Origin: Caballeronia sp. BR00000012568055 | GTDB lineage: Bacteria > Pseudomonadota > Gammaproteobacteria > Burkholderiales > Burkholderiaceae | Direction: 5' to 3' | NCBI RefSeq assembly: GCF_029439455.1 | Contig: NZ_JAQFVG010000358.1 | Span: forward strand, 62,001-126,000 | Length of the DNA stretch: 64,000 nucleotides | Shown here: positions 3,708 through 55,775 of the stretch, piece after piece | Layout of the letters: each line of letters opens with the position of its first letter | Position numbering within the stretch: the first letter of the stretch is position 1 | Notes under the pieces: generated by a model | What the model was told of the DNA's origin: nothing | The model's database searches: none | Seen by the model: only the letters and a program-made list of their open reading frames with translations | Translations under genes and position numbers: made by a program

Positions 3708-3892
3708 ACAACGGTATAGCGGATTGTTTTTGTGGCGTTCGTATGACTTGGCGCGAAAGAATGTCCGACAAAAGAGCAAGCATCGCGCCCGCGCGGCCAG
3801 ATTAGCGAAATGATCGATGATCGACAACGATTCGATCGACATACGCATATATTCGCGGCTTGCCGAGTCGGGCCGCATCAGGCTAAACTTGC

Positions 3893-4046
3893 GCCGTCTT
3901 TGGGGAGTAGCCTTCCTTCCGCAATGGGAGGAGAACGCGTCAACATCCTCGGCTATCGTGCCGTGGCGCGTTCGACCGGTCCGGTTTGGCGAGACCATCG
4001 ATGCGGCATGTCGTTCCTGGTCGGACGAGGCATGGCGCATCGTGGT
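3893..4046 (+). ncRNA. yybP-ykoY (manganese-sensing) riboswitch
   Basis: The leader of the cation antiporter carries the conserved blocks of this class in order: GGGGAGTAGCC (from 3902), a short hairpin (CTTCCTTCC...GGGAGGAG), GCGTCAACATCCTCGG (3937-3952), CGTGCCGTGGCGCG, and GGCGAGACC (3988-3996). The last block is followed by a long hairpin closed by CGATGCG (3999-4005) and CGCATCG (4036-4042). This is the architecture of the E. coli mntP/alx leaders. Known members bind Mn2+ and switch on exporters. A T-rich stretch (about 4146-4152) after a GC hairpin lies just before the gene and could be the expression platform. The remaining leader (3708-3892 and 4047-4171) holds no gene I can support. 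Confidence 0.85.
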
Positions 4047-4171
4047 TCGCTGACGTCCGACCTCGGAAACATCGTGTCCCCACAAAAACTATATCTTCCC
4101 CTCGCGCGGTTGCACGCGCGTCTCTCGCACGCGCTTCATCGCTCATTTTTTTGTTCGATGCGAGGTGCCGC

Positions 4172-52384: not shown

Positions 52385-53113
52385 ATGACCGACAACTCGG
52401 GCGGCACGCCGCCATTCTCGATTCCCGGTTTTCCCGGATTCGGCCAGGCCGACATGATGGGCAAGATGTGGGAACTGATGCGCCTGAATCCCTTCACCGC
52501 CGCAATGCAGGGCGGCGCTCAGGGCGGCGTTCCCTCTCTTTCGATGATGTCCGACATGCTCGCTCCGCTCACCAATATCGAAGAACTCGACAAGCGCGTG
52601 ACCGACATGCGCGCGGTCGAGCATTGGCTCAAGCTGAACCTGAATATGCTGCAATCGGCCATTCAGGCGCTCGAAGTGCAGCGCGCGACGCTGGCCACGC
52701 TGCGCGCGTTCGGCGCGTATGCGCAGTCGTCCGTGGAAGGCGCGCAAAAGGCGGCATCGGAGAAACCGGCTGCGCCCGGATGGCCGATGAACGCCGTGCC
52801 GAAAACGCCGAAGCCGGAACCGGAAGCACGCAACGAAAGCACCGCCGAAGAAAAAATTACCAACGATCCGCCGCCGCCCGGCTTCGATCCCAGCGGTTGG
52901 TGGAACGTACTGCAATCGCAGTTCAATCAACTTGCCCATCTCGCGATGATTCAGCCCGGCATGGCTAATCCTGAGGCGGCGGCATCCGGCGCGGCGGATG
53001 AAACCAACGCTTCTGCAACTGCAAGTGACGAGGACAAAGCGCCCGGCGCCGCAGCCCGAAAAGCGCCGGCGAAAAAGGCCGCGCCGCGCAAGAAGCCGAA
53101 CCCTTCGGAATGA
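52385..53113 (+). CDS. phaM: PHA granule-associated protein PhaM
   Basis: 242 residues. The N-terminal [35 protein letters not shown] and the helical middle ([54 protein letters not shown]) match PhaM, which activates PHA synthase and attaches granules to the nucleoid. The C-terminus [25 protein letters not shown] is a histone-H1-like PAKKA tail for DNA binding. A ribosome-binding site (AAGAGGACACGCAA) is present. It starts 48 bp after the hydratase gene. Confidence 0.88.
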
Positions 53114-53467
53114 TATGACGGTCCGGCGGACGCCCGTCCGCCGAGCTTGGGCCAGATTCAGCCAGATTCGGTGCGGCGCTCGTCCGCACTCTACATTCCT
53201 TTCACGCTCGTTCGTCTTCGACAGATCTTCCGTACGATGCATCCGTCGGGCGCGCTGATGCGTATCGATCAATACGCAGGCGGGTTGTATTGTTTCGCGA
53301 TACGAAAAGCTTCATCCGGCCGCGGATGCAGATGCTGGCTGCACATTTGTCTGCGACCGTGAAATCTGTCTATGATGAAGCGTTCGACGAGAGATGGCTT
53401 GTCTACCCGCGCTGCTATGGCACGCATTGTGCATCGACGTGTAGAGCTGTCTATATTTTGACTGTCC
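53114..53467 (+). promoter_or_regulatory. Upstream region of the CarH-like gene with repeated CTGTCYAT elements
   Basis: 354 bp without a gene. Three direct copies of CTGTC(T/C)AT occur at 53366-53375, 53447-53456 and 53462-53471. The last two are 15 bp apart and overlap the start codon. TTGTGC (53427-53432), 19 nt and TATATT (53452-53457) form a possible promoter overlapped by the repeats, which would fit autorepression. If correct, the transcript begins only a few nt before ATG 53468. Confidence 0.45.
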
Positions 53468-54481
53468 ATGACAAATTCATCTGAACAAGAATTCGAGCCG
53501 GATTCGTCGGCTGGCGACTCCGATCAGTTGACCTCGTTGCCGGATCGGCTCGACGGGCCCGCTAACGATTCCGCGATGGTCGGCATCGGCATTGGCGCGA
53601 TCGCGCAGGAAATTGGTCTGACGAAGGACACACTTCGCGTGTGGGAGCGACGATACGGTTTCCCGCAACCCATGCGTTCGGCGGGCGGCGAGCGGCTGTA
53701 TCCGCAGGAGCAGGTGTCGAAGCTGCGGCTGGTGAAGCGCCTGCTGGACGCGGGGCATCGGCCGAGCAAGGTGCTGGCACAGTCGATCGAGACGTTGCAG
53801 CACCTGGCGGAATCGTCGGGAATCGGGCAGGACGCGCCGGACTTGGAGCTCGATCATATGATCGCCTTGCTGCGGGCTGGCAACTACGAAGATTTCCGTT
53901 ACGAACTGCTCAAACGCGCCACGCGGGAAGGCCTGGAACGCTTCACGGTCGATGTCGCCGCGCCGCTTTCCGCGCGCATCGGCAATGCGTGGGCGGCGGG
54001 CACGCTTCAGGTTTATCACGAGCATCTTTTTAGCGAAGCGATTACCGGAGCGTTGCGCGCGCTGATGCGTCCGCTATCCGACGCGCTGCGTGGTCGCGGC
54101 GGCCGTCCGCGTGTGTTGCTGACCACGTTGTCGGGCGAAGGTCACGGTCTCGGCATCTTGATGGCCGAAGCCATGTTCACGCTCTCCGAGTGCGAGTGCA
54201 TTCAGCTTGGCTTGCAGACGCCGCTGCACGATATCGTCGATGCCGTGAACGCTCATAACGTGGATATCGTTGCGCTGTCGTTTTCGTCGGTGCTGCCCGC
54301 GCAGACCATCGCTAACGGGCTCGTCGATCTGCGCAAGATTTTGCCGCCGCACGTGCGCGTGTGGGTCGGCGGAAGCAGTCCGGCCTTGCGGCGCAAGGCG
54401 CACGACGGTATCGATCACATCGCGGGATTAGGCCCTATCGACGAAACGGTCGCCGATTGGCGTCAAACCGCCGTGCTATGA
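53468..54481 (+). CDS. MerR-family regulator with B12-binding domain, CarH/LitR-type photoreceptor
   Basis: 337 residues. MerR HTH with the CarA/CarH hallmark DTLRVWERRYGFPQPMR (about 54-70). The helical cap has W175 then nine residues then E185-H186 (GNAWAAGTLQVYHEHLF), exactly the W-x9-EH motif that contacts 5'-deoxyadenosylcobalamin in CarH. The Rossmann B12 domain has E224-x-H226-xx-G229 (LSGEGHGLGIL), where His is the lower axial ligand. All residues needed for AdoCbl photochemistry are thus present. Such proteins repress in the dark and release DNA in light. An alternative start is ATG 53576, since the first 36 residues are disordered. Confidence 0.87.
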   Translation: MTNSSEQEFEPDSSAGDSDQLTSLPDRLDGPANDSAMVGIGIGAIAQEIGLTKDTLRVWERRYGFPQPMRSAGGERLYPQEQVSKLRLVKRLLDAGHRPSKVLAQSIETLQHLAESSGIGQDAPDLELDHMIALLRAGNYEDFRYELLKRATREGLERFTVDVAAPLSARIGNAWAAGTLQVYHEHLFSEAITGALRALMRPLSDALRGRGGRPRVLLTTLSGEGHGLGILMAEAMFTLSECECIQLGLQTPLHDIVDAVNAHNVDIVALSFSSVLPAQTIANGLVDLRKILPPHVRVWVGGSSPALRRKAHDGIDHIAGLGPIDETVADWRQTAVL

Positions 54482-54908
54482 TCAAAAACGCCCGATTCGC
54501 CGACCGTGAATCGGGTGTGGCCGCAGCGTCGGGCGAGCTCATCGGCTTCCGGCGCGCGCGGGAATTCGCATCGTTGTCACGCTGATGCGGCATACTGCGC
54601 GGCCCGCGTGGACCGCCGGCAGACAGGCTGTTCTTCATACCTCAGGCACAGGTTTCGCTCCTCACCCACGGTAGAGCAAGACGCAAACAACGTAACATTC
54701 GCACGGGGAAGTGCAGTGTTTTCGCGGCGCGCGACGCGTTGCCGCAGCGTCAGAATGTGGCGCTTCGTTGTCGGATTACGTCTATGGCCGCCGGAATCCC
54801 GCGTAAAATTGAAAGCTTGGTTGCTCGCGCTCAACGGTTTTAACCGCTCATCGCGTGCCGATGGTCAATACAGATATAACGTCGCATAAGTGGCTTCAGG
54901 GGTGGACA
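54482..54908. other. Intergenic region with a minus-strand terminator and no gene; sRNA candidate
   Basis: 427 bp. Stem CCCGATTC (54491-54498) and GAATCGGG (54508-54515) is followed, only on the minus strand, by CG and five Ts, so it looks like a terminator for leftward transcription. No minus-strand protein gene ends here: the leftward frames have no ribosome-binding site and read as shadows. A leftward non-coding RNA or an antisense stop for carH is possible. The promoter of the diiron gene must lie at the right end. Confidence 0.4.
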
Positions 54909-55775
54909 ATGAACACCATGCTTTATCCGGAACTTTATAAATCGCTGGAATCCGTCCGTTGGGATATGGAGAAGGACATCCCCTGGGACAAATTCGATGC
55001 GTCGCTGCTCACCGACGAGCAGGCCAAGACCATCAAGATGAACGCGATCACCGAATGGTCCGCTCTTCCCGCAACCGAGATGTTCTTGCGCGACAACCAC
55101 AACGACAGCGACTTCTCCGCGTTCATCAGCGTGTGGTTCTTCGAAGAGCAAAAGCACTCGCTCGTGCTGATGGAATACCTGCGCCGCTTCAAGCCCGAAT
55201 TCGTGCCAAGCGAGGAAGAACTGCACGCCGTGCGCTTCGAGTTCGATCCGGCGCCGCCGCTGGAAACCCTCATGTTGCACTTCTGCGGCGAAATCCGCTT
55301 GAACCACTGGTATCGCCGTGCTGCTGAATGGCATACGGAACCGGTCATCAAGCATATCTACGAAACCATTTCGCGCGACGAAGCCCGTCACGGCGGCGCG
55401 TATCTGCGTTACATGAAAAAGTCGCTGGTTCAGGCTGGCGATACGGCGCGCGCGGCGTTCGCTAAGATCGGCGTGCTGATGGCGTCGGCGCGTCGCACGG
55501 AAAAGCCGCTGCATCCCACGAATCTGCACGTCAATCAGGCGCTTTTCCCGCGCGATACGGTGCAGTCGCGTCTGCCAGACCCGGAATGGCTCGAGCGCTG
55601 GCTCGACGATCAAATCCGTTTTGACGATAGCTGGGAGAAAAAGGTTGTCGAACGCATTCTGCACAACCTGTCGATTTTGTTCGAACGCTCGTTCGCGACG
55701 GCGCAGGAATTGAACCGATATCGCAAGGAAGTGACGTTGCGGTTGCAGGCTTCGGGCGGTGAACAGCCCGCTTAA
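54909..55775 (+). CDS. Diiron ferritin-like/acyl-ACP-desaturase-like protein
   Basis: 288 residues from ATG 54909, chosen because CAGGGGTGGACA lies just upstream; GTG 54855 and ATG 54861 are in frame but lack such a site. The four-helix diiron ligand set is complete: a Glu in EWSALPATE (49 or 57), E80-x-x-H83 (FFEEQKHS), E128 (CGEIRLNHWY) and E158-x-x-H161 (SRDEARHGG). The paired ExxH pattern is that of ribonucleotide-reductase-like and stearoyl-ACP-desaturase proteins. It probably oxidises an organic substrate with O2; the substrate is unknown. Neighbour of the CarH-like regulator. Confidence 0.82.
   Translation: MNTMLYPELYKSLESVRWDMEKDIPWDKFDASLLTDEQAKTIKMNAITEWSALPATEMFLRDNHNDSDFSAFISVWFFEEQKHSLVLMEYLRRFKPEFVPSEEELHAVRFEFDPAPPLETLMLHFCGEIRLNHWYRRAAEWHTEPVIKHIYETISRDEARHGGAYLRYMKKSLVQAGDTARAAFAKIGVLMASARRTEKPLHPTNLHVNQALFPRDTVQSRLPDPEWLERWLDDQIRFDDSWEKKVVERILHNLSILFERSFATAQELNRYRKEVTLRLQASGGEQPA

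Follow-up and report, generated by a model that had tools for sequence, protein, structure and literature searches.

A probable B12-dependent light-sensing repressor of the CarH/LitR kind, lacking His132, in a Caballeronia genome

The closest described systems are MerR-type regulators of light or photo-oxidative responses. In the CarH protein of Thermus thermophilus (a class I LitR; structures 3whp and 5c8d), His132 serves as upper ligand to the cobalt once the protein has been illuminated, and the operator consists of three 11-bp direct repeats; the general form of the CarH operator is given as tandem 11-bp direct repeats nnnnTnnACAn with the repeat motif TnnACA (PMC9304148). CtMerR (8jbs) is a MerR-type B12 photoreceptor, described together with a signature of this photoreceptor class made of GxxW, EH, GxxH and GxxxP (PMC11796333); it has the four elements, carries Arg at the position of His132, and its DNA-binding domain shares only 25% identity with the one in CarH. 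The class II LitR proteins of Pseudomonas (PplR and PmlR) have kept nothing of the B12-binding region beyond its four-helix part, have a LOV protein as partner and TGTACA-N12-TGTACA as operator, and are reported to control photolyase, CryB, FolE and UfaM genes (PMC9758184), a set similar to the genes that neighbour carH in the relatives studied here. The class III LitR of Burkholderia multivorans, from a related genus, is also of MerR type and shows light-dependent absorption according to the same source (PMC9758184), but its C-terminus has no similarity to the B12 domain. Finally, V. cholerae VCA0056 is described as a MerR-type regulator found alongside the ECF sigma system ChrR/sigmaE in the photo-oxidative response and is said to respond to ROS (PMC5241685).

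The gene that we compare with these systems was found in a 64,000-nucleotide stretch of a Caballeronia genome (hereafter the window, meaning the whole stretch analysed). It occupies positions 53468..54481 on the forward strand, where the first-pass annotation had reported a MerR-type protein, and the open reading frame of 337 aa there confirms that report. ORF, Pfam, alignment and AlphaFold evidence together give a MerR HTH followed by a four-helix B12 cap and a B12 Rossmann domain, the domain order of Thermus CarH and the domain set of class I LitR/CarH; the presence of the B12 domain places the protein outside class III. All three Pfam families exceed their cut-offs (MerR_1; B12-binding_2, 27.5 bits; B12-binding, 49.2 bits). 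The closest solved structures are those of Thermus CarH (E about 6e-23), also when a profile of 49 relatives is used, and CtMerR is among the matches in both the single-sequence and the profile search. The NCBIfam CarH equivalog model (NF052513) gives 121.2 bits where 400 are required, so that, unlike Thermus CarH, the protein falls below the cut-off; the same model matches all 49 members of our alignment A2 at E <= 1e-10. The AlphaFold model has a mean pLDDT of 84.9, with blocks of the B12 domain at 79-98 and a poorly predicted N-terminal tail of ~35 residues. The window genome also encodes a CobA/CobO/BtuR adenosyltransferase and a photolyase. A second CarH in this genome was considered and rejected: of the two matches, one is weak (L002, E 1.8e-4) and by eye belongs to another MerR-type protein.

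The motifs listed in the first-pass annotation are each present in the translation. WERRYGFP spans residues 59-66; W175-x9-E185-H186 (codons 175-186, 53990..54025, forward strand) corresponds to CarH residues that contact the adenosyl group; and E224-x-H226-xx-G229 (codons 224-229, 54137..54154, forward strand) contains the predicted lower cobalt ligand, H226. Alignment with Thermus CarH, which had been suggested as a check, sets W175, E185, H186, E224, H226 and G229 opposite W131, E141, H142, E175, H177 and G180 (CarH numbering from PMC10442372 and PMC11796333, except that E175 and G180 were counted in this analysis). The published four-element signature is complete as well (G172-W175, E185-H186, G223-H226 and G248-P252), although G223 is poorly kept in the wider set (37 out of 81 rows). 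The six residues are invariant in 18 aligned sequences with identity down to 41%. Among 81 rows (the window protein and 80 loci), W175, E185, H186 and E224 are found in all and H226 and G229 in 80, the lone exception being a gap in a broken gene (L217); the 80 loci are biased towards keeping these residues, because the peptide patterns by which they were partly found included EHL and HxxG. In a set of 34 proteins from a whole-protein search, 33 keep all six, the exception being L069. On domains and residues, it is probable that the window protein is of class I LitR/CarH type. The earlier claim that it holds every landmark of the family is right for the listed motifs and fails for one residue of Thermus CarH: the position of His132 is taken by Ala176. 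This histidine varies among known class I members and is not strictly defining.

carH matches are found in 52 of the 58 genomes of the genus Caballeronia, in 26 of the 150 genomes (eight of 25 genera) of a family sample, and in 125 of the 399 genomes of an order sample at E <= 1e-25. Two of the 26 family matches (G043 and G121) consist of the HTH only, and the one that was scanned (L026) has no B12 domain. In the genus, no match was found in G542, G552, G553, G569 and G572, which are among the smaller genomes (2.4-5.1 Mb), or in G576 (10.1 Mb); other small genomes hold fragments (G538, G540, G544, G548 and G568), and G571 (5.1 Mb) has the whole gene. carH is in pieces in Candidatus Paraburkholderia calva (L217). 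Additional copies away from the usual place occur in three genomes (L136-L140 in G536, G560 and G551); L136, L137 and L138 retain the upstream box TTTTGTCTATGATARAA; the search of L139 and L140 gave no TTGTCYAY box. Four orthologues in genus g8 (L019, L020, L021 and L023) have an intact HTH and the lower His and have lost the W, EH, E and G, and are possibly naturally blind CarH proteins. No publication on a Caballeronia CarH was found among the literature matches listed (the best 10 of 123 in one query, with subscription papers mostly outside its scope).

The genomic context of carH in its relatives points to photoprotection. Neighbours were counted in 80 loci (52 outside the genus and 28 from Caballeronia and near kin), up to 7 kb on each side and less in some. 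In many of them carH is divergent from an operon encoding a flavin amine oxidase, a DUF1365 protein, a CMAS/CFA synthase, a chalcone-isomerase-like protein, an MFS transporter and a DUF3833 protein, and glutathione peroxidase, FolE2 or the photolyase-related DPRP is found nearby in some. Outside the genus, the flavin amine oxidase gene is near carH in 45 out of 52 loci, for the most part accompanied by DUF1365 and CFA-synthase genes; in Caballeronia and near kin the count is seven out of 28. Over all 80 loci the counts are 49 for DUF1365, 47 for CFA, 28 for GPx, 19 for FolE2 and 12 for DPRP. Furan-fatty-acid synthesis involves UfaO, which belongs to the DUF1365 proteins, and the SAM-dependent fatty-acid methylase UfaM (PMC7380195), and the gene order oxidase-DUF1365-CFA resembles ufaD-ufaO-ufaM of that pathway, in which case the oxidase beside carH would be UfaD. 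These photo-oxidative lipid genes distinguish the relatives from the Thermus system in a comparison that covered the neighbour genes named above. Because photoprotection-type genes adjoin carH in most loci outside the genus, a light role for the regulator is supported.

The same relatives share a candidate operator. With at most one arm mismatch, the palindrome TTTGTCNNNGACAAA has 52 sites upstream of carH, in 41 of the 52 loci outside the genus, and a single site elsewhere in the 640,021 bases of these loci; swapped-arm and reversed-arm controls give six and one. With at most two mismatches there are 72 sites in 49 loci and 11 elsewhere (controls, 36 and 10). The palindrome is missing at the stricter threshold from 11 of the 52 loci and from 10 of the 34 loci of the whole-protein search, the other 24 of which have it, L069 with its broken signature included. 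Over 34 loci, five of which belong to the genus, 20 boxes were counted where 1.6 were expected. A search of 58 genus genomes for the exact pattern TTTGTCYATGAYRAA gave 52 matches, spread over 41 of them (reversed control, two), and cross-comparison of the carH and box searches puts 46 of the 52 at carH copies or remnants; one of the six others (L150) lies in a frame that by eye resembles an RND adaptor. The half-site TRGACA fits the CarH repeat motif TnnACA, and TnnACA half-sites occur mainly as the 15-bp palindrome, in a comparison that scored palindromes. On that count the main operator-like element of this group appears to be a palindrome, in place of the direct repeats of Thermus CarH.

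Of the 52 one-mismatch sites, 22 are followed, 0-4 bp beyond the palindrome, by the start of a sigma-70-like promoter directed away from carH; the other 30 have no adjoining promoter by the rule used, and none of the 52 has one directed towards carH (random places in the same stretches, 47 out of 4160). A site just upstream of the -35 element is a typical activator position. At these 22 sites only 0-4 bp separate the palindrome from a TTG-type -35 hexamer. Activation is therefore conceivable, and the protein could be an activator or dual regulator that aids RNA polymerase in one light state, an arrangement compatible with AdoCbl light sensing. The MerR-like protein beside phr in V. cholerae is described as either suppressing or enhancing genes of the light response (PMC5241685). 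The characterised CarH proteins, however, are described as dark repressors (PMC9304148), and the repressor CarA of M. xanthus also has an inverted repeat upstream of a -35 element, although its source paper prefers direct repeats as the true site. We therefore consider activation unlikely, and repression in the dark the better reading.

The absence of His132 bears on how light would be sensed. At this position the 81 rows have A (52), M (22), T (three), L (two), S (one) and R (one); His is found in none of them, nor in any of the 34 proteins of the whole-protein search. The bis-His latch of Thermus CarH is thus unavailable for light-induced release. The Thermus H132A variant is reported to be mostly tetrameric in light, having earlier been said to dissociate in light (PMC10442372), and CtMerR, with Arg at this position, goes from tetramer to monomer in light (PMC11796333). 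Since CtMerR monomerises in light without His132, it is plausible that the window protein senses light by a route without bis-His ligation. If it behaved like the mostly tetrameric H132A variant, it could instead sense the level of cobalamin: AdoCbl would drive oligomerisation and DNA binding, and light would swap the upper ligand without release of DNA. The replacement of His132 by Ala176 favours this possibility, but the pocket for the adenosyl group (W175 and E185) is retained, CtMerR provides a precedent for light release without the histidine, and the neighbours of carH in relatives are photoprotection genes; pure cobalamin sensing appears rather improbable. The first-pass reading of the protein as a photoreceptor stands in part: an AdoCbl-type sensor domain with all the published signature elements and the photo-oxidative protection genes near carH in relatives speak for it, and it is qualified by the absence of His132, which makes a bis-His latch impossible, and by the missed NCBIfam cut-off (121 of 400 bits).

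The context in the window itself is different from that in most relatives. The photoprotection operon is absent beside carH in the window and in its clade, and from the presence of the operon in most other loci we infer that it has been lost in this Caballeronia clade. A DUF1365 gene lies within 5 kb of carH in 15 of the 36 genus genomes that have one, and no genus genome was seen with both a carH-linked and an unlinked copy; G576 has the operon and no carH match. In 17 out of 58 genomes a full-length carH match occurs with no DUF1365 gene, and carH therefore persists without the operon. The only DUF1365 gene of the window genome is on another contig (L125:8611-16071), with an oxidase, two CFA synthases, a lipocalin, a DUF1295 protein, an RskA-type anti-sigma factor and an ECF sigma factor, which appears to be a differently wired photo-oxidative lipid module; this ECF/anti-sigma pair beside another such lipid operon recalls, by description, the V. 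cholerae VCA0056 system. Within the set compared, the best counterparts of the module's oxidase, of its DUF1365 protein and of the first of its CFA synthases show 46-60% identity, and no TTGTCYAY box comes within about 1.5 kb of the cluster.

In the window, carH is preceded by a gene for a PhaM-family PHA granule protein (52385..53113, forward strand) and followed by one for a ferritin-like/AurF-like protein (54909..55775, forward strand; domain search and neighbour comparison), which is also found in many relatives. A similar PhaM-like coding tail precedes carH in 11 of 15 aligned genus loci and is missing in the four of the operon-bearing clade. The flanking genes had been proposed as readouts of light regulation; neither the PhaM nor the ferritin-like gene is an evident target, and both are probably not main targets, as the recognised operator-like boxes sit at carH and none were recognised elsewhere among the flanking genes. 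Between carH and the ferritin-like gene lies a 26-nt element, CAGGCACAGGTTTCGCTCCTCACCCA (54643-54668), nearly identical across the Caballeronia loci seen, with one copy in each genome having it; it occurs in one of 25 genera of the family sample (eight of 100 genomes, at most three mismatches), matches no Rfam family at gathering score, and is not tied to carH, since it is also present in G576, where carH was not found. A manganese (yybP-ykoY) riboswitch is found at 3888-4058 (63.4 bits).

Loci of the genus share conserved, repeated boxes resembling TTTGTCYAY in the stretch ahead of carH. In the window, an operator-like palindrome, ACTGTCCATGACAAA (53461..53475), with two mismatches to TTTGTCNNNGACAAA, overlaps the start codon; it is in the same place (at -7, with 0-2 mismatches) in all 20 loci checked out of 28 in the Caballeronia group, and is partly coding sequence. 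A second operator-like box, TCTGTCTATGATGAA (53365..53379, three mismatches), is conserved in most genus loci examined and includes TATGAT, which could act as -10 element in the promoter of carH; a promoter scan gives a weak (9/12) sigma-70-like match there, TTGTCT-18-TATGAT (53347..53376, forward strand), and such matches number two in the region against 0.5 in shuffles. By sequence reading there is also a TGTCYA box (TGTCTA, 53400..53405), 33 bp from the TGTCTA at 53367. The exact TTTGTCYATGAYRAA box is absent from the window's own genome. Two scans of this genome for distant operator sites gave no clear target: six matches (one at carH) against five in the control, and 14 (two at carH) against two in the control, one of the 14 resembling a TetR-type site by eye. 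The remaining recognisable target in the window's clade would be carH itself.

It could be argued that in the window species the regulator is a relic, its target operon gone and the protein decaying or its sensor function lost. The missing operon, the degenerate boxes (two and three mismatches), the broken or missing carH of the reduced genomes in the genus and the four g8 orthologues without W, EH, E and G all fit such a fate. The dN/dS of carH in the operon-less clade, however, is 0.13-0.24 over eight chosen comparisons (0.11-0.24 for the cap and B12 domains), so that carH is under purifying selection there; every motif residue is retained in the window protein, and carH persists without a DUF1365 gene in the 17 genomes noted above. 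Decay is therefore very unlikely. That another regulator binds the palindrome, its location before carH being incidental, would agree with the site kept at L069 despite the broken signature, but is hardly to be expected given that, over 52 divergent loci and 58 genomes, almost all sites lie in the stretch upstream of carH and that their half-site fits the CarH repeat motif.

We consider it likely, from sequence comparison, that the window protein is a light-sensitive AdoCbl repressor of class I LitR/CarH type, without the His132 latch, with an autoregulated carH gene and a palindrome-based operator. In the dark, AdoCbl would be bound between the cap domain (W175, E185 and H186) and the Rossmann domain, with H226 as lower cobalt ligand; the AdoCbl-bound protein would oligomerise, and the oligomer would bind, as a repressor, to palindromic sites of the TTTGTCNNNGACAAA type. 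On illumination the Co-C bond would break, the adenosyl group would depart and the protein would release the DNA; with Ala in place of His132, the departure of the adenosyl group would itself bring about release, on the CtMerR pattern, and bis-His locking would play no part. The target would be the divergent photo-oxidative protection operon in most Burkholderiales relatives, and in the window's clade, where the operon is absent, the target left would be carH itself. The domains, residues, conservation, purifying selection and joint occurrence of operator, promoter and operon at the loci of relatives are computed results; AdoCbl binding, binding of the palindrome by the window protein, repression, light release and autoregulation are inferred.

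The gene at 53468-54481 thus probably encodes a B12 light-sensing repressor, a variant of the known CarH/LitR kind without His132. More tentatively, and with slightly less than even confidence, we suggest that a large clade of Burkholderiales has B12 photoreceptors free of the His132 latch, with a TTTGTCNNNGACAAA operator next to the -35 element and with furan-fatty-acid photoprotection in place of carotenoids, and that in one Caballeronia clade the receptor has been cut loose from the operon and kept under selection for another light-regulated task, the operon's role having either been lost or been taken over by a copy linked to an ECF sigma factor. The need for a bis-His switch in B12 photoreception is disputed, as reports on Thermus H132A conflict and CtMerR lacks the His; the question could be tested directly in a clade where no member seen has this His and where a candidate operator comes with an obvious target operon. 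Should the proposal be true, direct light sensing would extend to Burkholderiales of soil and fresh water, and a new green-light operator/regulator pair would become available.
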